In this document: piece after piece, positions 1 through 15,879 of the stretch
How the letters are laid out: each line of letters opens with the position of its first letter
Position numbering within the stretch: position 1 is the stretch's first letter
IMG/VR virus record: IMGVR_UViG_3300031957_002968
Location: 1 to 20,893 of that record
Source: a virus
Strand: one strand, 5' to 3'
Length of the DNA: 20,893 bases
Position numbers and translations under genes: made by a program
The notes under the pieces: generated by a model
What the model was told of the DNA's origin: nothing
Database searches by the model: none
The model's input: the letters and a program-made list of their open reading frames with translations, nothing else

Positions 1-614
1 TGAGCCAGTCGCCTCTCCCACACCGAATCAACGTGGACAGGTTTCCCCCTTACCTGTGAAACCTTTTTCACCACCTTCTTAACGGTGGGTTTGATCAGCT
101 TGAGAATTAAGTCCGCCAGCGGTTTGGCCACCAAGGCAGAAGTTGCAGCCACCAAGGCAATCGTTGTCGTCGTGACCACAGCCTCCACAGGCGGTAGTCC
201 GTCAATCGCTTTTTCCAGAAACGGCTTGGGGAGACCGCTCTCCTCCGTTGCCTTTGGTGTCGGCGCATTTGGCTGAGGTAATCGCGGGATTGCCGGTACG
301 TCAGGGGTTTGGGGTTTCTCGTTCTCGGCATCATCGGTCCGTGGTCTCGCAGGCTGGATTAGCTGAAATTCATGCGGCACGAAATCCATCGGATTGAACG
401 ATGGCACCTGCCCGTGCGGACAAAATGCTCCAACCCGACCTGGATCATCCTGCAGGAGGCTGGGGTTGAGCTTGGCGTCCGGGTGCACTGGAACGCAACC
501 CGGCATTTCAATAATTGGTGGCCCCAGCTCCAGCGTGACTGGTGGTGCCGTGGGCGGTGTACCTGTGGGTATCTCCCGGATCTGCGGGATGCGGATCTCT
601 GGGATATCAGGCAT
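1..614 (-). CDS. Proline-rich single-TM phage protein, 3' end outside the window
   Basis: I translated this frame codon by codon: it starts at the ATG at 614 and stays open for 204 codons to the left edge, so the C-terminus is missing. The start overlaps the stop of the upstream gene by one base (TGATG). Residues 1-135 are very rich in Pro, Ile and Glu, beginning MPDIPEIRIPQIREIP. Residues 143-163 form a hydrophobic Ala/Val/Thr segment that looks like a membrane helix, and residues 172-184 are Lys-rich (KPTVKKVVKK). I recall this plan (proline-rich head, one TM, basic stretch) and its pairing with a small TM gene from T4-like marine cyanophages, where the function is unknown. No catalytic motif is visible. 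Function is not assigned; a virion or envelope-associated role is only a guess. Confidence 0.82.
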   Translation of the reverse strand, partial: MPDIPEIRIPQIREIPTGTPPTAPPVTLELGPPIIEMPGCVPVHPDAKLNPSLLQDDPGRVGAFCPHGQVPSFNPMDFVPHEFQLIQPARPRTDDAENEKPQTPDVPAIPRLPQPNAPTPKATEESGLPKPFLEKAIDGLPPVEAVVTTTTIALVAATSALVAKPLADLILKLIKPTVKKVVKKVSQVRGKPVHVDSVWERRLA

Positions 615-838
615 CAGAAGGGCAGAGCCGGACCAGTCACGTCAGGCATCTTGGGCATGGCGCCCTTGATCTTGCCCTCCAGCTCAGCCTCGATGTGCTC
701 GGTCACCTTGCCGCCGATTCGCTCCATGCTGTCGTCCATGAATTTGTCGAACTGCAGGTAGCTGATAACCAGCGCTGCGGTCATGGAGCCGCTCAGCAAA
801 AAGCTGGTGATGGCCATCAAATCAATGATCTTTCGCAT
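614..838 (-). CDS. Small one-TM membrane protein (74 aa)
   Basis: The protein begins MRKIIDLMAITSF. Residues 5-29 form one hydrophobic helix, followed by an acidic/basic amphipathic stretch (DKFMDDSMERIGGKVTEHIE, about 31-50) and a Pro-containing end (PALPF). The frame could extend upstream to 901, but I chose the ATG at 838 because the N-terminus then has the basic-then-hydrophobic form of a membrane anchor, and because the region above 838 carries another coding-like frame. A weak AAAGG lies upstream of the start. The stop overlaps the ATG of the proline-rich TM gene by one base, so the two are probably translated together and may form a membrane-associated pair. I recall similar pairs in cyanophages. 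A single-TM protein could suggest a holin, but nothing specific supports that. Confidence 0.78.
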   Translation of the reverse strand: MRKIIDLMAITSFLLSGSMTAALVISYLQFDKFMDDSMERIGGKVTEHIEAELEGKIKGAMPKMPDVTGPALPF

Positions 839-960
839 TGAGGATTGCCTTTTCGTTGGCGTATGGCTCGACTGTAAGGAACTCGATGGCATCCTGCACA
901 TAGGGCTCCAGCCAGTCAGGCGGCCAGCAATACTCCCAGTTGTCCGGGTTGGTTAGACAT
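822..960 (-). pseudogene. Small Trp-rich ORF disrupted by a one-base frameshift near its start
   Basis: From position 950 down to a TGA at 822 one frame reads 42 sense codons of convincing protein (NPDNWEYCWPPDWLEP, then YVQDAIEFL and EPYANEKAIL), overlapping the next gene's start by 17 nt as phage genes often do. This frame has no ATG. An ATG at 960 lies in another frame, which reads only 14 codons (MSNQPGQLGVLLAA) before a stop. Removing one base near 947-952 would join ATG-Ser-Asn to the NPDNWEY frame. The site contains CCC followed by G, so +1 slippage is conceivable, but a simple indel or sequencing error is the plainer explanation. Function unknown; I loosely recall similar WPPDWL proteins in cyanophages. 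Confidence 0.55.
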
Positions 961-962
961 GG

Positions 963-999
963 AAAAACAACTACCCGCCAGAAGGCTGACAGGTAGTTG
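963..999 (-). terminator. Intrinsic terminator downstream of the barrel-protein gene
   Basis: On the minus strand a 14-bp stem (arm 999-986 pairing with 981-968, one T-G wobble and a second wobble in the inner part) closes a CCTT tetraloop and is followed directly by TTTTT (967-963). This is a textbook rho-independent terminator for minus-strand transcription. It lies about 50 nt past the stop of the barrel-like gene and just before the ATG of the frameshifted small ORF, so it separates the barrel gene from the left-end membrane genes. Confidence 0.85.
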
Positions 1000-1015
1000 C
1001 GCGTGACGATGAGTT

Positions 1016-1052
1016 GATCGAAGGCCTGCCGAAACAGGCCGTGGTTTCGATC
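1016..1052. repeat. Two-part inverted repeat at the 3' end of the barrel gene
   Basis: The arms 1016-1022 and 1046-1052 (GATCGAA/TTCGATC) pair, and directly inside them 1023-1028 pairs with 1035-1040 (GGCCTG/CAGGCC) around a 6-nt loop. A 5-nt bulge (1041-1045) separates the two helices on one side. The structure begins at the stop codon of the barrel gene and is not followed by a T run, so it is more likely an mRNA 3'-end or transcript-stabilising hairpin than a second terminator. Confidence 0.6.
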
Positions 1053-1419
1053 AGAACTTGTACTTGGAGCCGAGCTTGAGGCCGTAGCTGTTGCTTTTGG
1101 CGCCAGTGGCCATGCTCACTTCGGTGTAGAGACCGAGCTTGCCGTCAGCGGTGACAGGTGCACTCAGACCAGTCTTGGCGGAGAAGTTGTAGTCGGTTGC
1201 GCCACCCTCGGGGAACACAATCTGGGGGCCGCCTTGGATGTACCAGGCGCCGGCCTCGTAGCCGACGTGGGCATCAATGGCACCACCGCCGGAGGTCTGG
1301 TTACCAGCAAAACCCAAGTTGTACTCGGGGTTCACGTAGAAACCGTCAGCTTTGGCTGCAGGAGCCATAGCGACACCCAGTGCCACAACGGCGAGAGCAG
1401 CAGAAGCAGTCTTAAACAT
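1051..1419 (-). CDS. Secreted outer-membrane beta-barrel-like protein (122 aa)
   Basis: The protein begins MFKTASAALAVVALGVAMAP with a clean Sec signal peptide; cleavage is likely after AAKA-DG at about residue 24-25 (AxA-type site). The mature part is Gly/Tyr-rich with alternating hydrophobic residues (FYVNPEYNLGF, HVGYEAGAWYIQGGP, LGLYTEVSMATG, YGLKLGSKYKF) and ends in Phe, the classic C-terminal signal of outer-membrane beta-barrels. At about 98 mature residues it could make only a very small barrel or a multimer. An in-frame ATG 7 codons upstream (1440) exists, but starting at 1419 gives the standard signal peptide. Similar proteins occur, to my recollection, in cyanophages and cyanobacteria. 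Its role (altering the host envelope, or superinfection exclusion) is inference. It is closed off downstream by a strong terminator, so it may be expressed as a unit with the small genes upstream. Confidence 0.75.
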   Translation of the reverse strand: MFKTASAALAVVALGVAMAPAAKADGFYVNPEYNLGFAGNQTSGGGAIDAHVGYEAGAWYIQGGPQIVFPEGGATDYNFSAKTGLSAPVTADGKLGLYTEVSMATGAKSNSYGLKLGSKYKF

Positions 1420-1445
1420 TGGAGTGTTGTAACACAACATCCCCG
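1420..1445 (-). promoter_or_regulatory. Hairpin in the translation-start region of the barrel gene
   Basis: A perfect 6-bp inverted repeat, TGTTGT(1439-1434)/ACAACA(1430-1425) with a 3-nt loop, sits between a GGGG run (1444-1441) and the chosen ATG at 1419. The outer GGGG can also pair with CTCC (1424-1421), lengthening the stem and burying the only purine-rich ribosome-binding candidate. Folding of the inner stem alone would bring GGGG to about 6 nt from the ATG. Translational control, or an operator palindrome, is therefore possible; both are inference. Confidence 0.4.
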
Positions 1446-1463
1446 AGAGTTTACCGGCGTTGT

Positions 1464-1616
1464 CTACGTGGGCGGTTGATTAACTGGATCGTCAAACGGA
1501 TCCTTGCTGCCCCGGCAAATGGCGACTGCCCGCCGGTAGAAAAAAGAATCCGTTTTACCCGCTTCTTCAAGCGCTTGTTTGATCTTGCGCCAGTTGTCGC
1601 GGGTGTGCTGATCCAT
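1464..1616 (-). CDS. Small conserved-looking phage protein (50 aa)
   Basis: The ORF runs from an ATG at 1616 to a TAG at 1464-1466; its ATG immediately abuts the TAG of the upstream 44-aa gene, with GGCAGG a few bases before it as a possible ribosome binding site. The protein begins MDQHTRDNWRKIKQALEEAG, probably a charged helix, followed by TDSFFYRRAVAICRG and a short acidic/Pro-rich tail (DPFDDPVNQPPT). There is no signal peptide or TM segment. I believe I have seen close relatives in cyanophage genomes, without a known function. The head-to-tail packing with two other tiny genes and protein-like composition support it being real. Confidence 0.7.
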   Translation of the reverse strand: MDQHTRDNWRKIKQALEEAGKTDSFFYRRAVAICRGSKDPFDDPVNQPPT

Positions 1617-1751
1617 CTACCTGCCCTGACCGCGATACTTCTTCCTACCGTGGCTAGGTTTTGAGTGTTGACCCGCACCTTGACGGGTTTTCTTAGGCTT
1701 TCCAGGGCGGTGTTCAATTCGCCCCAGCGCCGTCTTTGACTTGACTGCCAT
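1617..1751 (-). CDS. Small strongly basic protein (44 aa)
   Basis: The ATG at 1751 overlaps the TGA of the preceding gene by one base (TGATG) and the ORF ends in TAG at 1617-1619, right against the next ATG. The protein begins MAVKSKTALGRIEHRPGKPK and continues KTRQGAGQHSKP to KKYRGQGR. It carries many Lys/Arg and almost no acidic residues, suggesting nucleic-acid binding or an intrinsically disordered tail; this is inferred from composition only. I recall near-identical short basic proteins starting MAVKSKTAL in cyanophages, annotated only as hypothetical. Too short for most ORF callers. Confidence 0.72.
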   Translation of the reverse strand: MAVKSKTALGRIEHRPGKPKKTRQGAGQHSKPSHGRKKYRGQGR

Positions 1752-1906
1752 CAGTCGTCAGCCGGGAGCGGTTCGTTGCCTTCGGCTAGCCATTCCTGGA
1801 ACGGCGGATGATCGGCAGTGCAGGTGACTCGAATCAAGCCGTCATCATCGACACGAGCGTAAATAGTTTCTCCTGAGGAGTTTGTGTTGAAGATTTTGTA
1901 AGTCAT
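1751..1906 (-). CDS. Small acidic phage protein (51 aa)
   Basis: The ATG at 1906 overlaps the stop of the receptor-binding-like fibre gene by four bases (ATGA), with GGAG about 9 nt upstream inside the fibre gene. The protein begins MTYKIFNTNSSGETIYARVD and ends in an acidic, Pro-containing tail (WLAEGNEPLPADD). The middle (DDGLIRVTCTADHPPFQEWL) resembles short cyanophage proteins ending in a similar EWLAEGN motif, as far as I remember. No catalytic residues are apparent. Coupling to the fibre gene suggests co-expression with the adhesion module; a structural or chaperone role is possible but not shown. Confidence 0.72.
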   Translation of the reverse strand: MTYKIFNTNSSGETIYARVDDDGLIRVTCTADHPPFQEWLAEGNEPLPADD

Positions 1907-3045
1907 AGTTCAGCACTCCAAGCGAGGTAAGCGTCTGCAGTTTTAGCAACTGCCTTTGATCCTTGCCCTGCAGTCAAGCCGCTTGCGACTTGGAAATAAA
2001 AATCGGAACCATAAGCAGAAGCATGGTCAAAAAATGGCACAGCGCTACAAACAGAATCTGAAGTCTGATAAAAAATTTGGTAATCAGTTGCATCACCCGA
2101 GGTTTCGATCGCGGTCGGTGCAGTTCGCATAGTTACTGGAAATGCCTTAAACGCTTGGCAAAGGGTAGTGTTTCGGTTGTAACCCATGGCGAAAGAGTCA
2201 CTACCAGTGCCGCTGTCCTGAATTTTGTAGTAATACCGCTGACACTTCGCCAGCTCATCGCCGTAGCTCCTGTGCTCAAACGGTGTGGCGACAGAACCGA
2301 CTTCTAGTTGGACGCCGGTAATAAGCCATTCATTAGAAGTGCTATCACCCAGGTTTAAGCTAGGTGAGCGATTGCTGAGCGTTGTTTGCCACGTCTCCGA
2401 AGGTGTTCCTGCCAAGTCTGGTCCAATTTGCATATAAAACCTAAAAGCAAGACCCACAGTGTTATCATTGGCAAGTGCAGTCGAAGTGTTTCCCGGTATC
2501 GTAATTGTTTTGTATTCCCAAGTGTCAGCAGACGAAATAGTGTAAGTCGTTGCATATTGACTGGCGTCATCGTAATGATAAATCCATAGACCGTAATCGC
2601 CAGTTTTATTAGACCTAACCCAAAAAGAAAGCGTCATAGATTGCGCTCCAGAAGTTCCGTACTGGAGATGCTGTAGGTTTTGAGATTCAACCTTTGTCTC
2701 AACAAACGCTTCTTGACTACCAGTAGGGGTTCCTGTAGTTGTGCAGTCAACCTTGAAACTGGTTGAAAAACCTGCTGGCGCAATAGACGATTGAGCTACA
2801 TCAAAAACAGCAGAAGTACCTTCACTGAACTTCCACATGTCAAGAGTGCTGCCGTTGGCACCTGTAAAACTCGTCCCCCGTTGAGCCACCTGCATCGCAC
2901 CGTTGATGAGCAGGTTGCGATTGCTAAGCGGTCCAGCAGTCGGATACGCCACGCCATCAACTGTGACGTGACCGCTGGTGTCAATGGAAATGCCGCCGTC
3001 AGTTGTTGACGTGCTCTTGATCGAATTGACCTTGATCGTAGACAT
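1903..3045 (-). CDS. Tail fibre / receptor-binding-like protein (380 aa)
   Basis: The N-terminus (MSTIKVNSIKS, then Thr/Asp-rich to about 40) looks like a short attachment segment. Residues 42-57 carry the phage adhesin motif NRNLLINGAMQVAQRG, followed by a beta-rich region, and residues 243-272 carry the matching closing motif (TGVQLEVGSVATPFEHRSYG, then ELAKCQRYYY). These two motifs bracket a jelly-roll-like, carbohydrate-binding-type domain common in phage fibres and cyanophages. A separate C-terminal domain spans about 274-380. The ATG overlaps the TGA of the upstream fibre gene by one base, and a perfect AAGGAGGTG lies 7 nt before it. The domain type suggests it contacts the host surface and could set host range; receptor unknown. 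Confidence 0.85.
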   Translation of the reverse strand: MSTIKVNSIKSTSTTDGGISIDTSGHVTVDGVAYPTAGPLSNRNLLINGAMQVAQRGTSFTGANGSTLDMWKFSEGTSAVFDVAQSSIAPAGFSTSFKVDCTTTGTPTGSQEAFVETKVESQNLQHLQYGTSGAQSMTLSFWVRSNKTGDYGLWIYHYDDASQYATTYTISSADTWEYKTITIPGNTSTALANDNTVGLAFRFYMQIGPDLAGTPSETWQTTLSNRSPSLNLGDSTSNEWLITGVQLEVGSVATPFEHRSYGDELAKCQRYYYKIQDSGTGSDSFAMGYNRNTTLCQAFKAFPVTMRTAPTAIETSGDATDYQIFYQTSDSVCSAVPFFDHASAYGSDFYFQVASGLTAGQGSKAVAKTADAYLAWSAEL

Positions 3046-4175
3046 CAGCTGGCACCTCCTTCAAGTGCGGTAAGGCGAGCCTCAAGGGAGGCGTTGGCGG
3101 TTTCTAGGGTCTCGATCTTGGCGATAGCTTCTTGGAGCGCAGCGGTCAACAGTGGGACAAGCTTGGATTGGTCGATGCCTTGATAAACAGGATTGCCGTC
3201 GTCGTCAACCGCATCCTTTTCACCTGAGATTGCTTCAGGCACAACATCCTGCACTTCATGGGCAAGAAAACCATCAACTGTTTTATTTGGATCCGCAATA
3301 AAGTTGAAACGTGCAGGGTTCAGTTGCTGCAAGCGAGTAATGCCGTCAGTAACTGGAACAACGTTTTCCTTCAGGCGGTAGTCGGAAGATGTGCTGTAAT
3401 CAGTAGATGAGCCACTTGTGCGAATGCTTCCAACAACCCCGTTATTGTTTCTGAACTCAATGTGGGCAATATCAGACGTGGTGGCTTGCCTGAAGTAAGC
3501 AGATGCCTGAGAGACATCACCCTCAACTGCTAGTCTTGGCGTCCCAAAAATGTTGCTAGCGCCATTGGAAGGGAGAGATACTGTTCCAGCCCTTGTTATA
3601 CTCATCCGCCCCGTCGGAGAAGACGCGCCATCCGCAGTAGTGGAGAACACTAGGCGCCCTGGCATGTCGTTGGCGCCAGGGGTGGCATCTATTTCTGCTT
3701 CAATCCGTGCGGCCTCTACAAACTGTGTACCATCATTTCCACTAAAACGTATATCACCAATGTTCCAATTGCCGCCCACTGCTCCATTAGATCCAACGGT
3801 GCTACCGTCACTTTTGGCTAAATGAAGGCTAGCTACTGCAACACCGCCGCCGTTGTTGCAAATCAACGCAAGACTAGACGTAGCCGCATCTGTTCCTTCA
3901 ACCTGAAAACGGGTTGTATCTGTTGAATTGTTAAAGTTTGCCCGCGCAGTAGACGTGCCAACTAAGAGGCGACCCGAGCCGTCGATGTTGACCGAATCGT
4001 CAGAGGCGTTGCCGTTGATGTCTAGCGGTCCCAGGTCGATGTTGCCGGTGCTTTCCTCAACAATGAAGGTGCCGCCGTTCTTCGCCGGGATGGTGATGCT
4101 GGTGTCCGTACCAGCAACTGCGGGAACATCAATCTCGATGCTGCCGGAAGTAGAGCCGTTAATTTTGAGTCCCAT
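3045..4175 (-). CDS. Tail fibre protein with C-terminal S74 intramolecular chaperone (376 aa)
   Basis: The N-terminus (MGLKINGSTSGSIEIDVPAV) matches the attachment segment of many phage fibres. The middle is beta-rich and contains DGSGRLLVGTS at about 65-75. From residue 264 a peptidase S74 (endosialidase-type) intramolecular chaperone domain begins, with the signature SDYRLKENV; the predicted auto-cleavage pair is Ser264 and Lys269, as known for the family. It continues to a C-terminal coiled coil (about 340-372) ending EGGAS. S74 domains trimerise the fibre and then cut themselves off, so about 112 residues would be released. The ATG overlaps the stop of the previous fibre gene (TAATG) and has AAGGAGGTG 7 nt upstream. 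It shares a 30-bp identical repeat with the neighbouring S74 gene. Confidence 0.88.
   Translation of the reverse strand: MGLKINGSTSGSIEIDVPAVAGTDTSITIPAKNGGTFIVEESTGNIDLGPLDINGNASDDSVNIDGSGRLLVGTSTARANFNNSTDTTRFQVEGTDAATSSLALICNNGGGVAVASLHLAKSDGSTVGSNGAVGGNWNIGDIRFSGNDGTQFVEAARIEAEIDATPGANDMPGRLVFSTTADGASSPTGRMSITRAGTVSLPSNGASNIFGTPRLAVEGDVSQASAYFRQATTSDIAHIEFRNNNGVVGSIRTSGSSTDYSTSSDYRLKENVVPVTDGITRLQQLNPARFNFIADPNKTVDGFLAHEVQDVVPEAISGEKDAVDDDGNPVYQGIDQSKLVPLLTAALQEAIAKIETLETANASLEARLTALEGGAS
3053..3061 (-). promoter_or_regulatory. Shine-Dalgarno site embedded in an upstream coding end
   Basis: AAGGAGGTG on the minus strand, 7 nt before the ATG at 3045, is a near-consensus ribosome binding site. 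It is also codons of the conserved EGGAS C-terminus of the S74 fibre gene upstream. It fixes the start of the receptor-binding-like gene at 3045. Confidence 0.85.
3950..3979. repeat. 30-bp direct repeat, copy 1
   Basis: These 30 bases are identical to 5029-5058, in the same orientation and reading frame, and encode the SGRLLVGTS motif of the two S74 fibre proteins. Flanking sequence diverges. The copies lie 1079 bp apart. Confidence 0.9.
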
Positions 4176-5215
4176 TAGGAAGCACCTCCTTCGAGTTGGG
4201 CGACGCGGGTTTCAAGCTGTTCTATTCGTTCCATCGCCTCCTGCAGAGCCTTGACCGACTTCATGTAAAGCACCGAATAGTTAACCGACTTGGTGACAGT
4301 GCCGGTTTCGCGCTCTTCGGTGGTGTAGGTGGGATCACCGTTTTCATCAAGTACCGGATCACCGTTCTTGTCAAGAAGGGGGATTTGAACGGTTTCGCGG
4401 TCAGGAGATTCAGTGACCAAACCGGGGGAGACAAGTTCAACCTCTTGGGCGATGAGACCGATTTGAGTATGGGTCTGACCTTCCTTGAAGTTGTAGTTGC
4501 GGACTTGAAGAGCTTTTAGGTCGTCCCACTGCGAAGATGCGTCAACGATGTTCTCCTTTAGCTTTACGTCGGAGATGCCGGTGTAGCTGTTGTTAGTGTT
4601 CTGGACGTTACCGTTTGACCACACATAGTAGGAAATTGTGCCGCCCGAGTTGATTGTTGATCGGTTATATCCACCAGAGTAAATAGATATTGAAGTTCCA
4701 GCAGCAGATCCTGTATAAGACTCATGCACCTCGTCTGCGCCAAAGCAACGGTTGCGTCCATTTGCCTGAATCCGCATCCGCTCCGTCGTAGTAGTCGCTC
4801 CTTGAGCAGTGGTGTTAAACCTTAAGTTAGTTGAGGCGGAACTGGCTGTATGGTCGTGCTCTGCATAGCACTCAATTTGGGCGCAAGTAACACCTGTGCC
4901 GCTGTCATTAGAAGCGAAATAGAAATGACCTATGTCATTACCGGCAACAACGCTGTCATCATTTCGCGCAATGGTTATTTCACCACCGCCGCCAGCAACA
5001 ACTTGAAGGTCGCCGCGGACAAAGTTACTAGACGTGCCAACTAAGAGGCGACCCGAGCTGTCAACCGTGGTGCGAGTGCTGCCGCCCGTGACAACGTTGA
5101 CCGTATCCGTACCAAACGAAATGCCGGTGTTTGTATCAGTGCCCTGAAGTGCAGGGGTTGTAGCTGAGCCGTTGACTCCTGCTACTCCGTCGTCGCCGCT
5201 AAGAGTTAATGCCAT
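4175..5215 (-). CDS. Tail fibre protein with C-terminal S74 intramolecular chaperone (346 aa)
   Basis: The N-terminal part (MALTLSGDDGVAGVNGSATT) is a phage fibre attachment-type segment. VDSSGRLLVGTS (51-62) and ERMRIQANG (145-153) are the recurrent motifs of phage fibre shafts. The S74 chaperone starts at SDVKLKENI, with Ser215 and Lys220 as the expected self-cleavage pair, followed by the typical GLIAQEVE (253-260) and a terminal coiled coil (about 318-342) ending EGGAS. Auto-cleavage would release about 131 residues. It starts 3 nt after the stop of the 203-aa fibre gene; no good Shine-Dalgarno is visible there, so it probably depends on coupling. It is paralogous to the next fibre gene in architecture but diverged in the shaft. 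Confidence 0.88.
   Translation of the reverse strand: MALTLSGDDGVAGVNGSATTPALQGTDTNTGISFGTDTVNVVTGGSTRTTVDSSGRLLVGTSSNFVRGDLQVVAGGGGEITIARNDDSVVAGNDIGHFYFASNDSGTGVTCAQIECYAEHDHTASSASTNLRFNTTAQGATTTTERMRIQANGRNRCFGADEVHESYTGSAAGTSISIYSGGYNRSTINSGGTISYYVWSNGNVQNTNNSYTGISDVKLKENIVDASSQWDDLKALQVRNYNFKEGQTHTQIGLIAQEVELVSPGLVTESPDRETVQIPLLDKNGDPVLDENGDPTYTTEERETGTVTKSVNYSVLYMKSVKALQEAMERIEQLETRVAQLEGGAS
4183..4191 (-). promoter_or_regulatory. Shine-Dalgarno site embedded in the EGGAS coding end
   Basis: AAGGAGGTG lies exactly 7 nt before the ATG at 4175 and is encoded within the final EGG codons of the upstream S74 fibre gene, the same arrangement and spacing as at 3053-3061. Confidence 0.85.
5029..5058. 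repeat. 30-bp direct repeat, copy 2
   Basis: Identical over 30 bases to 3950-3979, in the same orientation and frame, encoding SGRLLVGTS within the second S74 fibre gene. It could support homologous recombination between the two fibre genes. Confidence 0.9.
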
Positions 5216-5218
5216 GGC

Positions 5219-5830
5219 TCAGACGATAACCCAGGTGGACCCTGATGGGATTGTAACTGTGGCGCCGGAATCAATAGTGATCGGACCAGCTGACATTGCG
5301 TTGGTGGACGAGGTGATCGAATAGTCAGTGGTCACATTCTGCCCGTTTTCGTAGAAAACAGCATCTGATCCACCGCCTGACGCTCCACCACCGCCGCCAA
5401 TCGCACCCCACGCCCCATTCGCATATCCTTCAAATGCGTTGTCGTCGGTGTTGTACCGGAACATGCCATTGCTGGCAGTCGGTCGCTGAGCAGTCGTACC
5501 AGCAGCCACATCAATGGCGCCAGTGCCGGTCATGTTCACGTCACCGGCAAAACTCACCGTGCCAGTGAAACTTGGAGAAGCCAGCAGCGCTAAGCCGAAG
5601 TTGGCAGTGCCAATCCCGCCAGCTGCCGAAACCTCAATCCAGGCATCATTTGCCGAGTTGCGGATCTTCAGCGTGTTGGCGTTAGTGTCCGCCCAAATCT
5701 GATAAGCGTACGTCGTCCCGGGTTCGGTGCTGGAACTGTTCTGGCTGACGATTGCCGCCAGGGCGTTGTTGAGATCGCTACGAACGGCGCTACCCGTTCC
5801 ATTGGCGATCACATAATCATGAGTTGCCAC
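5219..5830 (-). CDS. Tail fibre / virion structural protein (203 aa)
   Basis: The GTG start (5830-5828) gives MATHDYVIANGTGSAVRSDL, a module I recognise at the N-terminus of many cyanophage fibre proteins, continuing with WADTNANTLKIRN-type beta repeats. Residues about 143-157 are Gly-rich, and the C-terminus (ITIDSGATVTIPSGSTWVIV) is a short beta-repeat cap shared by many phage adhesins. No catalytic motif is seen. It lies between the J-like tip gene and the S74 fibres, so it is probably a proximal fibre or tip-attachment subunit. No convincing Shine-Dalgarno precedes the GTG. The GTG is preferred because the DYVIANGTG segment directly follows it. Confidence 0.8.
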   Translation of the reverse strand: MATHDYVIANGTGSAVRSDLNNALAAIVSQNSSSTEPGTTYAYQIWADTNANTLKIRNSANDAWIEVSAAGGIGTANFGLALLASPSFTGTVSFAGDVNMTGTGAIDVAAGTTAQRPTASNGMFRYNTDDNAFEGYANGAWGAIGGGGGASGGGSDAVFYENGQNVTTDYSITSSTNAMSAGPITIDSGATVTIPSGSTWVIV

Positions 5831-5858
5831 GGCGGCCTATGCGCTCATATCCGCCACT

Positions 5859-8800
5859 TTAACCTGCCTTGCCGTAACCCACAGCGGAGTAGTTGAAGTT
5901 ACGGTCGATGCCAACATCTGACGAGTTGAAGAACGCCACATCAAACCCCGTGCCAGTGATATTGGACAGGGTGAAGTAGTCGCCGCTTTGCATGTTGTTG
6001 GCGGTAATGCCCACCGTCGGCAACTTGCTGTTGGCGCCAAGCAGCGTTGTCGTCCCAGTGAAGAAGGCGTTGGCAAACGTGACGGACTTCGTTCCGGTGC
6101 CGCTGGCAATCACTGACTCGCTGGATTCCGTGCGGCGCTCAAATTCTGCGACGTAGCCCAGCTCGTCAATCAAGATGTTCTGCGCAGTGTTGCTCGACTC
6201 CAGCTCTGCCTTGAACTGGAACGCCCTGCCCTTAAACGTGCCATTCGCAAATTCGTTCCAGCTACCCCAAGTCGGCGTGCCTGTTGGATCGTCGTCGGTC
6301 TTTCGCACGTAAAGCTTGGCATTGACCTGATCGACCTCATCACCATCAAACTCGTCCCAGTCGTCGATGCTTTCACTGCGCGAGTCGATCAGATCGCTTG
6401 GATAGAAGCCCCGAGTGACAAATCGCCGTTTCAAATCCAGTGAAAATACGCCTTCGAGATCAAGCGTGTTGACAAACTCGTATTCAGCGCTGCTCAGGAC
6501 ATCGCCGGAGAAATCAAAGTTGTCGATATCGTCAAAGTCGGTGACATCATCAATGTCGTCATCGCCGTCAATCGTTAGGGCGTCGTACTCATCGCTGTAA
6601 AAACAGTCGGTTCGAGTGCCTTGGAACGGTGGATCATCCAAGTCCTCACGCCTTGTCTGCAGTGCCAGCTTGCCTTGTGTATCAGGCAGGTCAATGATGA
6701 TGCTCGTCTCATTGGTGCTGAGCCTGCCGCCGTCATCGGCAAACTTGACCAGCACCTCGCCTTCAATCAATGAGATCTTGGCGCTAGTTGCCGAACCAGC
6801 AACCGCTTCAATCAAATCAACTGAGTTCGACCACGTTCCAGTGCCGTCCGTCTTATTGGAGTGGCGGATGTAAACCTTGCCGCCGTGTTTCACGTCAAGG
6901 TCAACGGTTTCATCCCACTTCAGCGTGCCTTCCTTGCTGCTCGTCGCTTCAAAACTCAGGTTTTGAACTTGGCCCGGAACAGCTGTTTTACCGATAGCCG
7001 TAAACGTCAGACTGCCAAAGTCAGTCGATTGCCGTCCCAGTGAGTTGATCGTGTAAACCTCGAACTCATACGTGCCGTCAGTCGTGTCCAGAATTTCAAC
7101 GTCTGGTTTGCCTGGGTGCATCGTTTCCCAGTTGTCGCTACCACGCCGATACCTGACCTTGTACTGAGGTGCGCCCTTAACGGCCTCCCAGCTCAAAATA
7201 ATCTTGACCTTAGCTTTGTCGTTACTGGCGTAAAACTTCTCCTCAGCCTGAAGATTGCCTGGCGCTCCAGGGATCGGATTAAGGTTGGTAATGTCACGGG
7301 TGTCAAGCTTGAAGCCGTCTTCAACGTGTCCGTACTTATTGGCGTTGTATTCAAGCGCTGTGATCTCATAAATCGCTGGCTCTTTTTCATTAACAGTCAG
7401 CACCCTAAATTGCTGCGTTTGAATTGAATCGGTCTGCACGATCCAAACGCTGTTTGTGTTTGGCGCGGAAGTGAAGTCAGAAGAAACAGTAATCGTCGTT
7501 CCGTCGCGAGATGATATATCCCGAGTTTCCAGCGTTCCATCGGACAGCAACACCGAAAGCGTGGCGTCGCCTTCGGGCAGTCCATCCGCGTCGTCAACGG
7601 TGACTGTCGAAACCGTAGCGCTGCTAATCCTTCCGCCGTAACGGACCCCAGCTCGCACTGGATCCTGTACGTCAATAACAGCGCCAGGGCGTACCACCGC
7701 TCCAGCATCAATCGACGCTGAAAACGTGATGACGTTGGTCTCGTTCTGTTCGCTAAACAGGATCCAGCGGCCTAGTCGATTTGCTTGACCCCGTGACGTG
7801 CAGGCAAACGCCTTGACCTGTGTAGCGACCCAACCGTACTTTTCAATGCCGTCACGGTCTTCAACCATTTCATAGTTCTGCTCCCGTCGTTCCAGGTCCA
7901 GATAACTGACGACTGCGACTGTGTGGCGCGTTTTAACGTCCGAACCGGCATAGCTAAAGCCTGGCTCCAGCACATTGGCGCGGTTAAATAAATACGTTGC
8001 ATCAGTCGGTTTGTCCTGAGTCAACGTCAGCGACCCAGTGGACCAGAACGGCTGGCAACGCATGACCGAGCAAAGGTCGTTGACCAGCTTGTAAGCCTCG
8101 TATTGGTTCTGAATTAGCGCGTTACAGCTAAATCGTGCTTCCTCGCCACCTTGGCCGTCATCCACCAATTCGTTGGAATACTTGGATGCAGCTAAAAAGG
8201 CAAACTTGTCCAGCTGCGCTTCAGCAATGTGATCACCAAAGCCATACCGCTTATTTATGAGCAGGTCGTACAGGATCCACGCAGGGCAGGTCGTCCACTG
8301 CGCAGCGCCAAACGTCCCAGTCCAAGTGCCGCTATACGTCAGCCTGCCTGTGGCAGCGTCAACAGTCGCGTTATTTGGAATCTTGACCTTGATTCCACGA
8401 ACGCGATACGACCGAGCAGGGATATTGTTGAACTGTTCTGCCGCAAACCGAACTGCCGCTAACGCACTGTTGGGATAGCGTAGTTTCTTGCGAATAATCT
8501 CCGTATAAGCCGTCCAGAAAGTAGGGTTTACGTTGGTGTCAGTGCTGTCGTCAGAAACCCGCTTGACGCGAATATCAACAGGAAAATCACCATCCAGCTC
8601 GACCAGATAATCCCGTTCGTATTTGTCAGCTGTACGGCCACTAATATCAGCATCTTTGACCTTGGTAAAGCCGCCCCCGTTGTACTGGACCTCGATGTCC
8701 AGCTCGACGCTCGTTCCAAGGATGTCGCCTTGTGCGTTTGACGCCTCAAGACGAGGTACAGCAATACTTACTCGAACAGCATCGACGTTCGTATCCGTGA

Positions 8801-9275
8801 TCTGGCGCGTTACAGGCGTTGCCTGAACCACCTCAGTATTAACACTAATAATGTCCTCAACATCGCCAAACCCTGTGGCGCTGATATGCGTTTGAGCGTT
8901 AGTGCCGTACCGAGTCGTAACCGTAACGCCCTTAAAGTTGTAGTCGCTGTCGCTCAGGTTGGTAACATCCGCCCCAGCGCGCAAAATTGGCGTATCTGTT
9001 AAAAATACATCCTTAAGAAGCGCTTTGTTGTAGTTATCCGTCCCACGGGTATAGCTTCGCGCAGACGGAAAGCCTTCAATCTCGCCCTCGCTAATCAGGT
9101 CAAGAATCGTGGCGTGAGCTGTTGATGCAAGGTTGTCTGCTGTGCGAGTTGGTGTCCTCGCAGGAGGTGGCGCAGCCTGTTGAACAACAACAGTCTGTTG
9201 GACGACTGTTTGGCCACCACCACCGCCGCCACCACCACCGGCACCGATGATCTGTTTACGGTCTTTCTTGGCCAT
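5859..9275 (-). CDS. Lambda gpJ-like tail tip / host-specificity protein (1138 aa)
   Basis: This is the central tail-tip (baseplate hub) protein. A Lys-rich start and a run of 9 Gly (about residues 14-22) with a Gln/Val/Pro linker are followed by NLASTAHATILDLISEGEIE, the conserved entry into the J/TipJ core. The core continues to about 640 with motifs such as RVRGIKVKIPNN and CPAWILYDLLINKRYGFGDH. At least one fibronectin-III-like domain follows (about 670-770, VKIILSWEAVKGAPQYKVRYR-like) and probably a second. An Asp-rich stretch (895-925) and a beta-rich C-terminal domain close the protein, giving a length similar to lambda gpJ. I start at the ATG at 9275, one base after the gpI stop, not at the upstream TTG (9290) inside gpI. 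The C-terminus probably carries receptor contacts or fibre attachment. Confidence 0.92.
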   Translation of the reverse strand: MAKKDRKQIIGAGGGGGGGGGQTVVQQTVVVQQAAPPPARTPTRTADNLASTAHATILDLISEGEIEGFPSARSYTRGTDNYNKALLKDVFLTDTPILRAGADVTNLSDSDYNFKGVTVTTRYGTNAQTHISATGFGDVEDIISVNTEVVQATPVTRQITDTNVDAVRVSIAVPRLEASNAQGDILGTSVELDIEVQYNGGGFTKVKDADISGRTADKYERDYLVELDGDFPVDIRVKRVSDDSTDTNVNPTFWTAYTEIIRKKLRYPNSALAAVRFAAEQFNNIPARSYRVRGIKVKIPNNATVDAATGRLTYSGTWTGTFGAAQWTTCPAWILYDLLINKRYGFGDHIAEAQLDKFAFLAASKYSNELVDDGQGGEEARFSCNALIQNQYEAYKLVNDLCSVMRCQPFWSTGSLTLTQDKPTDATYLFNRANVLEPGFSYAGSDVKTRHTVAVVSYLDLERREQNYEMVEDRDGIEKYGWVATQVKAFACTSRGQANRLGRWILFSEQNETNVITFSASIDAGAVVRPGAVIDVQDPVRAGVRYGGRISSATVSTVTVDDADGLPEGDATLSVLLSDGTLETRDISSRDGTTITVSSDFTSAPNTNSVWIVQTDSIQTQQFRVLTVNEKEPAIYEITALEYNANKYGHVEDGFKLDTRDITNLNPIPGAPGNLQAEEKFYASNDKAKVKIILSWEAVKGAPQYKVRYRRGSDNWETMHPGKPDVEILDTTDGTYEFEVYTINSLGRQSTDFGSLTFTAIGKTAVPGQVQNLSFEATSSKEGTLKWDETVDLDVKHGGKVYIRHSNKTDGTGTWSNSVDLIEAVAGSATSAKISLIEGEVLVKFADDGGRLSTNETSIIIDLPDTQGKLALQTRREDLDDPPFQGTRTDCFYSDEYDALTIDGDDDIDDVTDFDDIDNFDFSGDVLSSAEYEFVNTLDLEGVFSLDLKRRFVTRGFYPSDLIDSRSESIDDWDEFDGDEVDQVNAKLYVRKTDDDPTGTPTWGSWNEFANGTFKGRAFQFKAELESSNTAQNILIDELGYVAEFERRTESSESVIASGTGTKSVTFANAFFTGTTTLLGANSKLPTVGITANNMQSGDYFTLSNITGTGFDVAFFNSSDVGIDRNFNYSAVGYGKAG

Positions 9276-9276
9276 G

Positions 9277-9948
9277 TCAGATCGTGTCAACGTCGATGCC
9301 GGCAGAAATCACCACCGATCCAACAATAGTTTCGCCGTAGACCAGCGGGACTGGCAATCCAACTCTCGAAGTATTCTGAATCCCGCTAAAGCTGTACGAC
9401 TCCTGTGGGTCCAGTTCAGTTCCCTCGCTAGTCGTTGTTCGCCCGCCCCCAGCAGACATACGTGTCGGTCCTATTTGACCTAACTGAGGTGTTGGGCTTA
9501 AAAGCTGTGAAACCCCTCCCAAGATTAAGCTGACACCAATAGCGCCAACAATGTTTGCGGCACCCACGCCCAACGTAAAACCTGCCGCTGTAAGCGCACC
9601 TCCTCCCGCTCCACTAAAACCAAGCACTGCTGCGCCAGCTGGTGCCAGCAAGATTGCGGTCGCCACTAATGCCACACCAGCCAAAATCTTTCCGACGCCG
9701 CCACCAGCACCTCCCAGTACCGGCACAATCTTGATCGTTTGGCTTGCCGGATAATTCAGTTGCTCCAGGTCGGATTCATATCCATCCACGATCACCTTGT
9801 AATGCTGGTCCGCCATGTGGCGCTCCAGTCCTGGAAAGTTAGCCAGCAACATCCGTACTGCTTCGCCAGCACTGCTGATCTCAGCTAAAAATCGCCTCTG
9901 GCCAACAAATTTGGCGAGCGGACCATAGACCCTAACTTCTCGTTCCAT
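9277..9948 (-). CDS. Lambda gpI-like tail assembly protein (223 aa)
   Basis: Residues 1-75 look like the ubiquitin-like fold of the gpI family ([20 protein letters not shown], then [15 protein letters not shown]). Residues 79-150 are a long Gly/Ala-rich hydrophobic stretch ([35 protein letters not shown]). The C-terminus, 184-217, holds the conserved [20 protein letters not shown] and GSVVISAGI motifs. gpI is needed for tail-tip assembly next to J and K and is often not found in mature virions. It overlaps the end of the gpK-like gene by 17 nt and precedes J by one base, in the canonical lambda order K-I-J. The hydrophobic region could be a membrane-active segment for genome entry; this is inference. 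Confidence 0.9.
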
Positions 9949-10639
9949 GCCGCAACACCCGTCCTGTGCATTTTAAGAGCCACTCGCCCAATAAATCACG
10001 GCTGGACAGCCTGCCTCGTAAGTGATGCAGCACCATCTGGTCGCCTAAGTAAACACCCACGTGATTCAGCTTGTTGGAATCAATCGCCATCAACATCGCA
10101 TCCCCCGCCTGCATCTCAGCAATATCCACCTCATAAAAACCAGCCTCTTCCCAACACCCGTCAAACATCGGATTTTCATTGAACTCATCCGGTGTTGTGG
10201 GACGGTCCCAGTCAGGCAGCTTCAACCCCTGCTCTCCGTACCAGTCGCGCACTAGCGTCCAGCAGTCGGTCACGCCCCAGATCCATGACCGCCCAATCAA
10301 TGGGGCTTTGTACCCTTCAGGCTTGCATTCGCCCCATCGCTCCAGCTTGGGATTGACGATGTACCAAGGCAGGCCAGACTTCTCACACGCAATCCGATCC
10401 GCTTCACTAGGAATTGGTGGCGTAACAGGATGACTATGGACGACTGCTACGACTTCACCTTTGTCCTCAGCGGCAGCGTAATCGACTGGATCAAGGATGA
10501 AGAACTCGTTAGTTTGAGCCAAATTTTTACATGGCCAATACCTCTCCCGCCCCTTGATAACGACCAGCAAACCGCATGACTCACGTGGATCCTCCGCTTT
10601 CGCGTGCTCCAGTGCGTTTGCCTTAGCAGTCGCCTTCAT
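9932..10639 (-). CDS. Lambda gpK-like tail tip protein: JAMM plus NlpC/P60 domains (235 aa)
   Basis: Two enzymatic domains are visible. N-terminal JAB/MPN metalloprotease: Glu20 in ESCGLLV, then [14 protein letters not shown] supplying His68, His70, Ser78 and Asp81, a complete JAMM zinc motif. C-terminal NlpC/P60 cysteine peptidase: [13 protein letters not shown] with Cys126, LNHVGVYLG with His193, and a third polar residue at His205 or His206. In lambda-type phages gpK is a tip assembly protein that can cut peptidoglycan during DNA entry. Both active sites look intact. The ATG overlaps the TGA of the gpL-like gene by 4 nt. Cyanobacterial peptidoglycan would be the likely substrate if the host assignment is right. 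Confidence 0.93.
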
Positions 10640-11379
10640 GAATTAAACGCGCCAATGCCGGGGAATCCTCCGAAAGGTAGCGCGGCATTCTCCCCAAAAC
10701 GAGCCTCACAACTGCTCAGACGCTTTCCGCATTTATCCAAATCCGTGTCAGTAACAGCATTGTCGTTTTCATCGAAAAAGTCGCTGCCGCTGTACCCACA
10801 CTCAGATCCTTTGTAAATCCAAGGACACAAGTTGGCGCTGCACTGACGTTTTGGGCTGCGAACTCCTGCAAGGTCGAATGAAGCAGCTAGCTCAAAAACA
10901 ACTACGTCCCTGCTCTCGCTGACTTTTCGCGCGACGTAGTAAATATCGTCGTTGAACTTTTGGGTTGCGTCCGGCGTCCCAAATGGGTTATCACCGTCAA
11001 AGTTGTCGTTGTCGATGTACCGCGCCAAGGTGCGGATTCGTGTCAGCTTTGCTCCAGTGAGATCGTTGCCGGCCGTGGTGTTATTAACGTCCAGCAGGAT
11101 TGTCGTAATACCGCCAAGCAGGTTTGCAACTGTCAGTGTCGGCCTGGGCAGGCTGCCACTTTCTGCGTTGTAGTCAAAACCCTCCGCTTGGATCGGAAGC
11201 TTGGTATAGGCCTCACCGTCCCAGACGATGTTCTGCACTCCAGAACCAACGTCGTTGATGCCGGCGTGAAATCGGTAAGTAAAATCGCTGCCGTGGAGCA
11301 GCTCCGTCGTTTCCAACTCAAACAGCTCAATAATGCTGCTTGGGTTGATTTTCTGTAGTTCCTCAAATGGAATTGGCAT
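10636..11379 (-). CDS. Lambda gpL-like tail tip protein with Fe-S cysteine set (247 aa)
   Basis: Residues 1-170 follow the phage minor tail protein L pattern ([43 protein letters not shown]). The C-terminal domain contains Cys180, 185, 194, 217 and 224. Cys185-194-217-224 has spacings of 9, 23 and 7 residues, which matches my recollection of the four [4Fe-4S] ligands of lambda gpL; the surrounding [14 protein letters not shown] text is typical. gpL joins the tail tube to the J hub. It overlaps the M-like gene by one base (TAATG) and the K-like gene by four (ATGA). Confidence 0.93.
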
Positions 11380-11726
11380 TACGGCTCAAACACTTGGATA
11401 AAAGTAGCGTTGATTGTGGCCCTGCCTGTATAAGGGATTGATTTTGTCCATTCAGGGCAAATCCATTTATACGTGTCGGTCTCATCCAAGGGACTCCAGT
11501 CAAAACTGGCAGAATCCTCAGCTCTGGCGTCTAAAAACGTTTCAATCGTGTCGGCGTCAGCCTCGGATACGTTCCAGGTCAACGTCCACTCCTTTGGATT
11601 CATGTGGGACGGAATGCCCTCAAGAATCCGCTGCTGGTAACCATCGCCGAACTGGACAGTCCTAGTCCTGGGACGGCTGCTCTTTTGTGCGCCGTATGCA
11701 GGTGTAATCGAAGGGAAAGTAGCCAT
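11379..11726 (-). CDS. Lambda gpM-like minor tail protein (115 aa)
   Basis: The sequence fits the short phage minor tail protein M family (Pfam Phage_min_tail): VQFGDGYQQRILEGI at about 24-38, KEWTLTWNVSEADADTIETF at about 45-64, FDWSPLD, KWICPEWTKS and a closing INATFIQVFEP. Its length is typical for the family. gpM sits between the distal tail tube and gpL in the tip. The ATG overlaps the tape-measure stop by one base (TAATG), as does its own stop with the L-like gene, so translation is probably coupled through tape measure, M and L. Confidence 0.92.
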   Translation of the reverse strand: MATFPSITPAYGAQKSSRPRTRTVQFGDGYQQRILEGIPSHMNPKEWTLTWNVSEADADTIETFLDARAEDSASFDWSPLDETDTYKWICPEWTKSIPYTGRATINATFIQVFEP

Positions 11727-14350
11727 TAGGCGAGCAAGCCTCCAGGACGCTTCTGTTTGATCAGCTCTTGACGGATAGCAACGCCAATGGCTTCGCCAAG
11801 CTGTTTTTGCTCGTTGGCATTGCCCTCGACACTGCTGCCGGATGCGTCCACATTAACCACGATGTTTGAACCGCCCATTCCGTGGTTTGGAACAATGTTG
11901 CCCTGAGCGCCAGGGACGAATAGTTCGGGGCCGCGTTCGCCCACCATGTAAGGTTTGCCGGCAGAAACAGCGCCACCTAATGCCTTACCTGGAAGAGCAG
12001 GTAGCGGTGGCGGTGTTGAGGGGAGTGCGCCTCCCTCGTAACGACCTCCAGGCGCAACAAGTGAGGCATAGGGGTTGGGGCTAAACAGGGTGCGCATAAA
12101 CCCAACTGCCTGTTCAATCACGTAGATCTGAATTAGCTGGCGGGCAATGTCCTGCAGCACATTCGCAGCAATGTCCCGAAGAGCCATGCCCCAGTTACTG
12201 GCGCCAGTGATCAGCAGATCGAACGAACGGGTCATCCCTTGACCCAACACGTCAGATACCTGCTGGGCGAGCTGCAGTTGTTGCTGCATACCCTTGTTCA
12301 GCTGGTTTTGCTGCTTGATTTTGTTTTGCATCTCCTCAAAGGCACGCTGAGCTGCTTCTTTGTTTATCTGCTCGATGTCGTAGGCAAGCTGCAACTCAGC
12401 ACGCTTGGCTTCAAGACCCAGATTGCTAATAGCGAGGTCTTTTTCTTTCTGCGGCACGTCGCTGGCGCGGATTTTTGCTTCTTTCTCGGCAAGCTCTGCC
12501 ATACGCATACGATGCTCAAGCTGGCGTACACCTAAATCATCGTCATTACGCTTCAACTCGAACATCGTGCGCTCAAGTCCCAGCAGCTGCTGAAGCTTTT
12601 GCTGCTCTGCTTGGAGATCAGGTATACGGCTGCGGCGGCCTTTTTTAGTTTTGGGAGGTGTAATACCAAGCCTATCTAGAGGTGTGACAGGGATAAGCGG
12701 TGTCGCTGGGGCCTTGATTCCCTCTTTGGTGGCTTGTTCGAGTGTTTGACGTAAAACTTCGTTCGTAATTGTTCCGGGTACAGTTATTTGTTTTGCGCGA
12801 CTTTGCGTGATAGGGGCAGTCTGGAAACGTGGATCGCTAAACGCGGCAGCTTGCTGTTGAGCAGAGATAACCCGAGTGCCCCTCTTCTCCGTCAAAATTT
12901 CTTGCAGACGTTTTGCCTGCGTTGGACTAACGCTTTGCTCCAGGGCGCTGAATTGGCTACGAAGAGTAATCCCGCCGACAAACTGGCTTACAAGCTTCAA
13001 GAAATTAGTTAATGGTCCTGCAATCAGAGCTTGGAGTTGCAGCGTTAGTTGTGCCCAAAGACGTGTGACTTCGCTTGTCTCATCTCCAAGCAACTTCAGG
13101 CTCTTAACGCCGTCGGTGCCAATAACTGTAGTCAATTCTTGAGTCAGTAACTTGGCTAGTTCTTCAGCCTTGCCTTGTTTCTCTAGCTCGATGGCACGGG
13201 CTTCAATCTGTTGAGAGCTGAACAAGCTCTTTTCGCGTACGAACTCAAACGCTTTAGACGTAGACGTAAACGCCTTTGATGCCTCCAAAGTGGAGCCAAC
13301 AAACTTGTCGAGCTGTTGACCTAAGGCACTAAGGGCGATTTGAGCAGCAAAACCAGCCGGTCCGCCAACTAGGCCGCCAGCTGCGCCACCAAGAACGGAG
13401 CCAGGGCCGCCGCCGAACAGCAGTGGGAAGCCTGCACCAAGTGCAACACCTGATGCTTGCTGGATGCGGCGTTGCCGACGTAAACCGGCGGGTGATCCTG
13501 GAATATTTGGAGCACCACCGATAGGGCTACTGGGAGCTACACCGCTAAAAGCCGGGAAAGGTCCGACAGGAGTCGTATATGCCCTTGGGTCGCCTCGTCT
13601 GGCTAGTTGTCTGGCTATAGGCGAACCAGGCAAAGACGCGCTGCCCTGGATGGGGTTAAACGGGGCGTTAGCTGCTGAAAGCTTGAGTTGTTTTTGAAGC
13701 TCGCGTGTTTGACGCTGTTGTAGAGCCAGTTTGTCGCGTTCTTTTTTAATGTCTAATGTCAGCTGAGCGCTTAACTGTTTGTGGGTACCAAAATTACGCT
13801 TTGCTTGTGCTGCAGTAATCTCACCAAGTTTTGCTCGTAACTTATCTGTTTTTACGCCCGCCTCTTCTAGGCGTCGGATCTGCTGGTCTAAAGTGTAACG
13901 TTTTACTTGTGCTTTGAAGAGAGCATCGATGCTCTCGGCTTGCATACGATTTGCCTTGGTTGATATACGCAGTTTTGCTGTTTCTTGGGCAATAAGTGTA
14001 CGTGCGACACTATTTTGTGCCCGCGCCATTGTGAGACGACCCTTGTCGTTCTCTTTGGCTGCTGCGCTTAATTTTTCGCGTATTTTCGCTACATTTACAC
14101 CTTTAGCCTCAAGCTCATTGGTCTTGCGGCCCAAGTTGTAAGTGACAATCTGCGTTGCCTGCCGTCGCTCAGCTAAACGCGCACTTTGCTTCTGTGTGGT
14201 TAAAGAGCGCCGTGCTGCGGCATCCTCGTTACGCAGCGGTGCAGCGAGGTTTTTCTTGAGGTCGTTTACTCTCTTTTCAAGAGTTTTCAGCTGATCGTCG
14301 AGCTTCTTGGCGTTCAGCTGGATATTTACTTCGTAGTTGACGCCAGCCAC
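11726..14350 (-). CDS. Tail tape measure protein (874 aa)
   Basis: The GTG start (14350-14348) gives MAGVNYEVNIQLNAKKLDDQ. Residues about 10-225 are almost continuous heptad-rich, Lys/Arg/Gln-rich coiled coil. Residues 299-346 form a Gly/Ala-rich hydrophobic region, the putative membrane-insertion segment of tape measures. A second coiled coil spans about 575-700. The C-terminal motif VGERGPELFVP (803-813) with NIVPN is diagnostic of lambda-type tape measure proteins. At the rule of about 0.15 nm per residue this length predicts a tail of roughly 130 nm, consistent with a siphovirus. It follows the two chaperone frames directly, as usual. A GTG start without an obvious Shine-Dalgarno suggests coupling to the chaperone gene. 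Confidence 0.94.
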   Translation of the reverse strand: MAGVNYEVNIQLNAKKLDDQLKTLEKRVNDLKKNLAAPLRNEDAAARRSLTTQKQSARLAERRQATQIVTYNLGRKTNELEAKGVNVAKIREKLSAAAKENDKGRLTMARAQNSVARTLIAQETAKLRISTKANRMQAESIDALFKAQVKRYTLDQQIRRLEEAGVKTDKLRAKLGEITAAQAKRNFGTHKQLSAQLTLDIKKERDKLALQQRQTRELQKQLKLSAANAPFNPIQGSASLPGSPIARQLARRGDPRAYTTPVGPFPAFSGVAPSSPIGGAPNIPGSPAGLRRQRRIQQASGVALGAGFPLLFGGGPGSVLGGAAGGLVGGPAGFAAQIALSALGQQLDKFVGSTLEASKAFTSTSKAFEFVREKSLFSSQQIEARAIELEKQGKAEELAKLLTQELTTVIGTDGVKSLKLLGDETSEVTRLWAQLTLQLQALIAGPLTNFLKLVSQFVGGITLRSQFSALEQSVSPTQAKRLQEILTEKRGTRVISAQQQAAAFSDPRFQTAPITQSRAKQITVPGTITNEVLRQTLEQATKEGIKAPATPLIPVTPLDRLGITPPKTKKGRRSRIPDLQAEQQKLQQLLGLERTMFELKRNDDDLGVRQLEHRMRMAELAEKEAKIRASDVPQKEKDLAISNLGLEAKRAELQLAYDIEQINKEAAQRAFEEMQNKIKQQNQLNKGMQQQLQLAQQVSDVLGQGMTRSFDLLITGASNWGMALRDIAANVLQDIARQLIQIYVIEQAVGFMRTLFSPNPYASLVAPGGRYEGGALPSTPPPLPALPGKALGGAVSAGKPYMVGERGPELFVPGAQGNIVPNHGMGGSNIVVNVDASGSSVEGNANEQKQLGEAIGVAIRQELIKQKRPGGLLA

Positions 14351-14377
14351 AGAAAACGCCCGCCTAGTAGACCCAGA

Positions 14378-14599
14378 TTAGCGAACTCTGCGATACTGGG
14401 CCTCTTGGCGGGCACGTTCGTACGCCTTCTCCTCGCGCTCGGACTTGAGGTTCAAGTAAGCGCTCCAGGCGTACAGCTCTTCGGTGGACATGCGCTGGCG
14501 TAGTTCGGCCAGCGTCATGCCCAGCGTTTCTGCGATAAAGAACTGCAGGTAAAGCTGCGGGTCCTTATCAATCTGCGCTTTTGACGGCCTCCGGCTCAA
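14378..14599 (-). CDS. Tail assembly chaperone, downstream frame (gpT-like)
   Basis: The only start-like codon of this frame is a TTG at 14599, inside the upstream chaperone gene; the frame is open back to 14626. Sequence from the TTG: SRRPSKAQIDKDPQLYLQFF, then IAETLGMTLAELRQRMSTEE, a Trp/Tyr helix and a strongly charged end (EREEKAYERARQEAQYRRVR). The helix rich in Leu, Glu and Gln and the TLAELRxRMSxEEL pattern are typical of the C-terminal half of tail assembly chaperones. I think it is mainly made as an extension of the upstream frame by +1 frameshift, giving a fusion of about 186 aa, rather than independently. It lies between the G-like frame and the tape measure, which it would coat during assembly. 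Confidence 0.8.
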   Translation of the reverse strand: MSRRPSKAQIDKDPQLYLQFFIAETLGMTLAELRQRMSTEELYAWSAYLNLKSEREEKAYERARQEAQYRRVR

Positions 14600-14939: not shown

Positions 14940-14962
14940 AAAAATTAGACTTGACTATTACA

Positions 14963-15451: not shown

Positions 15452-15879
15452 CAGTGTGTAGCTGTGAAATTGCAGGTGATAACGCTCAGGAAGTGGCTGT
15501 CGTTTTCGCTGGCAACAGCAGAGGGTCCTGCAATCGTGCCAACGTGCGGGCGGGCGGAATAGCTGTCGGTGTAGCCCGAAGCGTTGACTGAAGTCAGGCC
15601 GTCGATCACAGATTCAGCAATGGCAGCAGCTGCAGCACTACCGCGATTCATTGGCGTGAAAATGGCACATCGAATAGTGCCGCCGTAGTAATCGATCGCT
15701 GCACCATGCGGCTGGTACGTGGATTGGCTGAAGTTGATGTTGACCAGCACGTAGCTGGTGTCTTTGCCGGGTGTGGTGTACGGCATGTTGTCAAACACCA
15801 CCGAAACACTGCTATCTGCGTCGGTGATAGCGGTGTTGAGGGCCTTCTCGAAGGCAGCGCGGGTGTTGACGAGTGTCAT
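15451..15879 (-). CDS. Tail terminator-like protein (DUF4128 type, 142 aa)
   Basis: N-terminal FEKALNTAITDADSSVSVVF followed by DNMPYTTPGKDTSYVLVNIN is the typical start of small tail terminator (gpU-like) proteins, which cap the tail tube and fix its length. The middle GGTIRCAIFTPMNRGSAAAA with a following helix (AIAESVIDGL) fits the alpha/beta fold of this group; I believe it matches DUF4128. It is joined by one-base TGATG overlaps to both the head-closure gene before it and the gp10-like gene after it. There is no signal peptide or TM segment. Confidence 0.78.
   Translation of the reverse strand: MTLVNTRAAFEKALNTAITDADSSVSVVFDNMPYTTPGKDTSYVLVNINFSQSTYQPHGAAIDYYGGTIRCAIFTPMNRGSAAAAAIAESVIDGLTSVNASGYTDSYSARPHVGTIAGPSAVASENDSHFLSVITCNFTATH

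Follow-up and report, generated by a model that had tools for sequence, protein, structure and literature searches.

When the last codons of one gene double as the ribosome site of the next, which of the two does selection hold in place? Two consecutive tail-fibre junctions in a virus record offer a clean natural test of whether the peptide or the ribosome site wins where the two are written in one set of bases. Host changes in phages come about largely through changes of tail fibre. If one junction served together as the end of a coding sequence, as a ribosome site and as an exchange boundary, this would explain why a newly acquired fibre gene can enter an operon without losing its translation.

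The stretch of DNA analysed here (20,893 bases, hereafter the window) carries a lambda-like tail operon on its minus strand. Its J-like protein best matches those of Prochlorococcus siphophages MED4-117 and MED4-184 (42–43% identity at 93–95% coverage), and a small gene near the fibre block (1440-1051, minus strand) encodes a cyanophage outer-membrane-protein-like beta-barrel domain (PF24653), so that the window phage is most likely a siphovirus of marine picocyanobacteria. The 20-mer ACCGCACTTGAAGGAGGTGC was absent from the bacterial and archaeal genomes searched, which leaves a prophage or host origin untraced. The fibre block, on the minus strand throughout, is laid out as follows:

5219..5830, minus strand: gene upstream of A, 203 aa, GTG start, 3-nt gap to A
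4175..5215, minus strand: fibre gene A, ORF of 346 aa with a C-terminal Peptidase_S74 domain, ending QLEGGAS-TAA
4183..4191, minus strand: AAGGAGGTG within codons GAA GGA GGT G of gene A, Shine-Dalgarno (SD) sequence for gene B, as read from the sequence
4173..4177, minus strand: TAATG, overlap of the A stop and B start, one base shared (the A of the stop codon)
3045..4175, minus strand: fibre gene B, ORF of 376 aa with a C-terminal Peptidase_S74 domain, ending ALEGGAS-TGA
3053..3061, minus strand: AAGGAGGTG within codons GAA GGA GGT G of gene B, SD for gene C, as read from the sequence
3043..3047, minus strand: TGATG, overlap of the B stop and C start, one base shared (the A of the stop codon)
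1903..3045, minus strand: fibre gene C, ORF of 380 aa, a tail-fibre relative without the S74 domain

Genes A and B both exceed the curated cut-off of PF13884 (22 bits), with 39.5 bits (E 7.1e-10) and 36.7 bits (E 5.2e-9), respectively, and match the tail fiber families phrog_9942 and phrog_18345, while gene C matches tail fiber family phrog_4492 (E 1.7e-57), lacks an EGGAS end and is followed, through an ATGA overlap, by a 51-aa ORF (1906-1751). As in other Peptidase_S74, or intramolecular chaperone, fibres (PF13884), A and B carry the domain with its conserved S-D start and C-terminal coil, and S48, D49 and K53 of the domain are invariant or nearly so across 37 sequences; when solved structures were searched with the sequence of gene B, only chance hits came back. 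Unlike most S74 fibres, A and B end in an EGG tail, which is present where another gene overlaps.

Gene A closes with CTC GAA GGA GGT GCT TCC TAATG and gene B with CTT GAA GGA GGT GCC AGC TGATG, the shared pattern being GAA GGA GGT GCN NNN stop. The initial annotation had read these bases as peptide code and SD at once, and the window agrees exactly: the ends are as it described them, GAA GGA GGT holds AAGGAGGTG at both junctions, the spacing from AAGGAGGTG to the ATG is exactly 7 nt in both, and each ATG overlaps the preceding stop by one base. Counting both strands, AAGGAGGTG occurs twice in the window, each time at a fibre junction, and GAAGGAGGTG likewise has just two copies. With anti-SD duplex energies of −15.8 and −15.7 kcal/mol, the two junctions are the strongest of the 24 genes examined, the other 22 starts reaching −10.4 kcal/mol at best and most being much weaker, and the tail codons of A and B give a stronger SD than their synonymous recodings. 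An SD-like site was absent from the start of gene A in the same comparison and a 3-nt gap separates A from the gene before it, so the strong site is confined to the fibre-fibre junctions. Across 614-20612, most operon genes, other overlapping pairs included, have a weak SD or none, and GGAGG outside the two fibre junctions occurs in the operon only at 11726. Strong SDs as a general property of the window phage were thus considered and rejected on the anti-SD energies of the 24 genes.

Among relatives, the tail goes with the overlap. In 122 non-redundant S74 gene ends gathered by two homology searches of IMG/VR, an overlapping ATG (at −1 or −4) follows 10/10 EGGxx ends versus 11/112 other ends (Fisher p 2.6e-9), which upholds the predicted link between EGG ends and an overlapping start. 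Separate searches that left the wobble positions open and did not require an ATG, and so give a non-circular test of the following ATG, found it overlapping in 29 of 30 non-redundant EGGA-ended S74 fibres. Stop and start overlap in 40 of 41 non-redundant relatives (25 at −1 and 15 at −4), a set that was in part searched with TAATG required. The sole exception among the 30 is a sequence present in two contigs that are identical over 1,500 nt, L175 (junction at 9024, minus strand) and L181 (junction at 4597, minus strand), in which ATGA has become ATAA: EGGAS and GGAGG are kept after loss of the overlapping ATG, and of the next gene a remnant of 12 codons is left.

Codon choice follows the ribosome site closely. 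In the 41 non-redundant tails, where open wobbles make the test of codon choice non-circular, Glu is GAA and the first Gly is GGA in 41/41, compared with 0.64 and 0.21 for these codons in pooled usage; at the second Gly the tails have GGT in 35, GGA in 4 and GGC in 2, and the two codons after it vary freely. The anticipated preference for GGA GGT is therefore real, and in LEG ends without an overlapping gene Gly is mostly GGC (13/16). Leu before Glu is CTT in 37/41 tails although it lies outside the SD, so the uniformity of the block partly reflects shared descent. Other overlapping S74 fibres end in LEN, LES or LEA (LENA, LEAK, LESK) and take GGAG from CTG GAG or TTG GAG; EGGAS is not required for GGAG at an overlap. 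Under synonymous recoding, overlapping tails are SD-enriched whether they end in EGG (mean z −2.17) or in other peptides (−1.54), whereas non-overlapping tails are not (+0.39 and +0.21), and the dual-use principle thus extends to the LENA, LEAK and LESK fibres.

The peptide itself was considered as the conserved element and rejected: fibre tails reading KGGAS, EGVAS, EGGTN and EGES occur, as do EGGAN, EGGAE and EGGAA, and GGAG is kept in all, within a junction set that had itself been chosen by AAGGAG. A family-blind search for AAGGAGGTG N5 TAATG found at least 120 IMG/VR stretches with many unrelated gene families before and after the site, and unrelated genes among the matches listed read KGGDK, KGGGM, EGGEK and the like ([K/E/Q]GGx). 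With AAGGAGGTG placed 7 nt before the ATG, the TAATG overlap fixes the frame, and the site consequently reads xGGxx. Because tail residues change while GGAG stays, and because unrelated genes read xGGxx too, the ribosome site is the apparent selected element; selection seems to act on it, with the EGG peptide as its passenger. The initial annotation's view that selection on either use preserves both was, on these grounds, too symmetric.

The same search speaks for a purely geometric explanation, in which any strong SD 7 nt before the ATG of TAATG or TGATG must read xGGxx-stop, so that EGG arises independently each time and there is no fibre-specific plug. Portal-like proteins also end in ALEGG, in purine-rich codons. 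Geometry by itself nonetheless seems unlikely to us as the full account. The consensus of 30 non-redundant upstream ends, cTtaCcGCaCTTGAAGGAGG, is conserved well upstream of the SD, and this, with CTT in 37/41, shows that common ancestry or exchange links the fibre tails outside the SD as well, whereas 27 non-redundant downstream starts have little in common beyond the ATG. The upstream block is also already seen on S74 domains of several quite different subfamilies, and similarity between genomes breaks off preferentially at the junctions, with BLAST similarity ending within −60..+40 of them 112 times versus 20.8 expected (5.4-fold), compared with 39 versus 27.7 (1.4-fold) at 59 other gene starts in the same regions; the junctions had been selected by AAGGAG and the regions centred on them, mostly in short metagenomic contigs.

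The mosaic pattern itself is extensive. The 45 S74 junctions fall into 29 combinations of 10 upstream domain groups with 17 downstream groups; 5 of the upstream groups have several downstream partners and 6 of the downstream groups several upstream partners. Redundancy was reduced in the sets of relatives, and independent events were counted without trees. In 31 genome pairs at least 85% alike on one side of the junction and <60% on the other, the likeness is upstream only in 17 and downstream only in 14. One pair, L208 and L210, is 99% alike after the start and 50% before it, yet the last 20 nt before the start are 95% alike. Since the same block of about 20 nt, CTTACCGCACTTGAAGGAGG, stands before many downstream genes and after many S74 domains, it acts as a module boundary. 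The idea of a plug-in end, put forward from the window alone, thus finds its expected pattern in the 29 combinations and the 5.4-fold excess of breaks, and viruses related to the window phage appear to swap fibre genes exactly at this junction, which may help fibre shuffling rather than merely survive it.

Evolutionarily, equal ends could also be inherited through fibre duplication, with tandem copying of S74 genes leaving similar tails through recent common ancestry rather than selection. Genes A and B are indeed in tandem and of the same Pfam family, and the coil ASLEARLTALEGGAS is common to many EGG ends. However, A and B agree at just 35% of positions over their final 160 residues. Within a single S74 subfamily, the members with an overlapping gene end in EGG, and those without one end in other residues, with TAG as the stop. 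The codon bias, too, is tight within the SD and relaxes behind it, and together these points make duplication a very improbable explanation. Least probable of all, and by a wide measure doubtful, is that the bases are a recombination or protein-level signal (e.g., a tail needed by the released S74 chaperone) that matches an SD incidentally: the tail does sit at the very end of a long C-terminal helix in the predicted S74 structure (residues 120-158 of 160, mean pLDDT 86.7), but the silent positions that do not vary are precisely those on which the SD depends, amino acids are replaced while the SD is kept, and the tail is missing from most S74 fibres. In that predicted structure the EGG residues form the last turn of the terminal helix, and residue changes there may be cheap.

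We therefore return to translational coupling combined with exchange, which we consider probable: termination-reinitiation would link the two genes, and the conserved block of about 20 nt would have become an exchange boundary as well. Functionally, the ends of A and B would be translationally coupled junctions in which a full-strength SD is held in the last codons of the upstream fibre gene, so that a ribosome completing the S74 chaperone coil at TAA or TGA could reinitiate immediately at the ATG of the overlapping next gene. EGG would then be simply the reading of the ribosome site in the frame that the overlap of stop and start imposes, and genes exchanged at CTTACCGCACTTGAAGGAGG would keep a working start signal. 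Both reinitiation and a role of the block itself in promoting or selecting exchanges are read here from sequence patterns, and it might be held against coupling that the next gene could start on its own strong SD without it. Other genes in the same contigs have a median anti-SD energy of −4.1 kcal/mol versus a mean of −14.7 kcal/mol at the junctions, a comparison that is partly circular since the junctions were selected by AAGGAG.

Overlapping gene pairs that carry an SD inside the upstream gene and are coupled by termination-reinitiation are a well-documented and common arrangement in prokaryotes (Huber et al. 2019, PMC6728339; review PMC12548453). In cyanobacteria the SD is rare at de novo starts and used mainly at overlapping pairs (PMC6728339), and the confinement of very strong SDs to the fibre-fibre junctions is in keeping with this. 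The fibre junctions resemble those pairs (PMC6728339, PMC12548453) in their overlaps of −1 (TGATG or TAATG) or −4 (ATGA) and in placing the SD in the upstream 3′ coding end, but they differ in that the full AAGGAGGTG stands among otherwise weak sites of the same phage, and in that one coding block recurs ahead of many unrelated downstream genes. It has likewise been described that the 3′ end of a coding sequence, the stop codon and the spacing are adapted to the SD of the following gene (Palleja et al. 2009, PMC2784483); there as here an SD in the upstream coding end shapes the coding choices made in it, yet that is a genome-wide tendency, whereas the fibre case concerns one family in which the codons are fixed. 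The concept of short boundary sequences, conserved where phage modules join, is cited in PMC3029335, and, as far as that citation describes them, they share with our junctions a short common block with unrelated sequence on one side or the other, while the fibre boundary is also protein code and ribosome site, and recombination at it is inferred. Each of the three elements, the overlapping start, the SD within an upstream gene and the short boundary sequence between modules, is thus known already; what the fibres add is one family in which all three coincide, with codon-level and mosaic evidence.

Fibre genes without an overlap may hand over to the next gene in an alternative way. Within 30 nt after 49 of 101 non-overlapping S74 fibre ends, usually directly after TAG, we found TCCTACTCACTA or TCCCCTTCACTA (for example L004:4861, L007:4624, L017:5365 and L043:4861), compared with 1/101 at a control position and 0/21 overlapping ends. 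We take this motif to resemble a T7-like phage promoter. Behind it, in two copies, lies a 17-codon mini-ORF that has the same T-ALEGG tail, overlaps the start of a fibre gene and replaces the upstream fibre gene: L194:13316-13371, plus strand (MKLLTMTTNIALEGGAS), and L286, minus strand near 3095 (MKFSIMTTKTALEGGAE). A further copy, in L247 (minus strand, near 3146), is frame-shifted by one base.

More tentatively, CTTACCGCACTTGAAGGAGGTGC could be a portable gene port of cyanophage fibre arrays, providing both homology for exchange and a ribosome site, so that a cassette placed behind it would be expressed at once, and the mini-ORFs of L194 and L286 could be the same port behind a promoter-like motif. 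If true, this would give fibre cassettes a ribosome site strong enough for phages and hosts that rarely use SD starts.

There is no AAGGAGG in the isolate Synechococcus phage S-SBP1, yet its fibre junctions carry GGAGGTGA and GGAG in the same layout. In this genome (L413; 3824 and 4897), a small gene ending in QLGGE (CTCGGAGGTGAGTGATG) precedes the S74 fibre gene gp43, which in turn overlaps gp44 by ATGA, with GGAG in the last codons of gp43.
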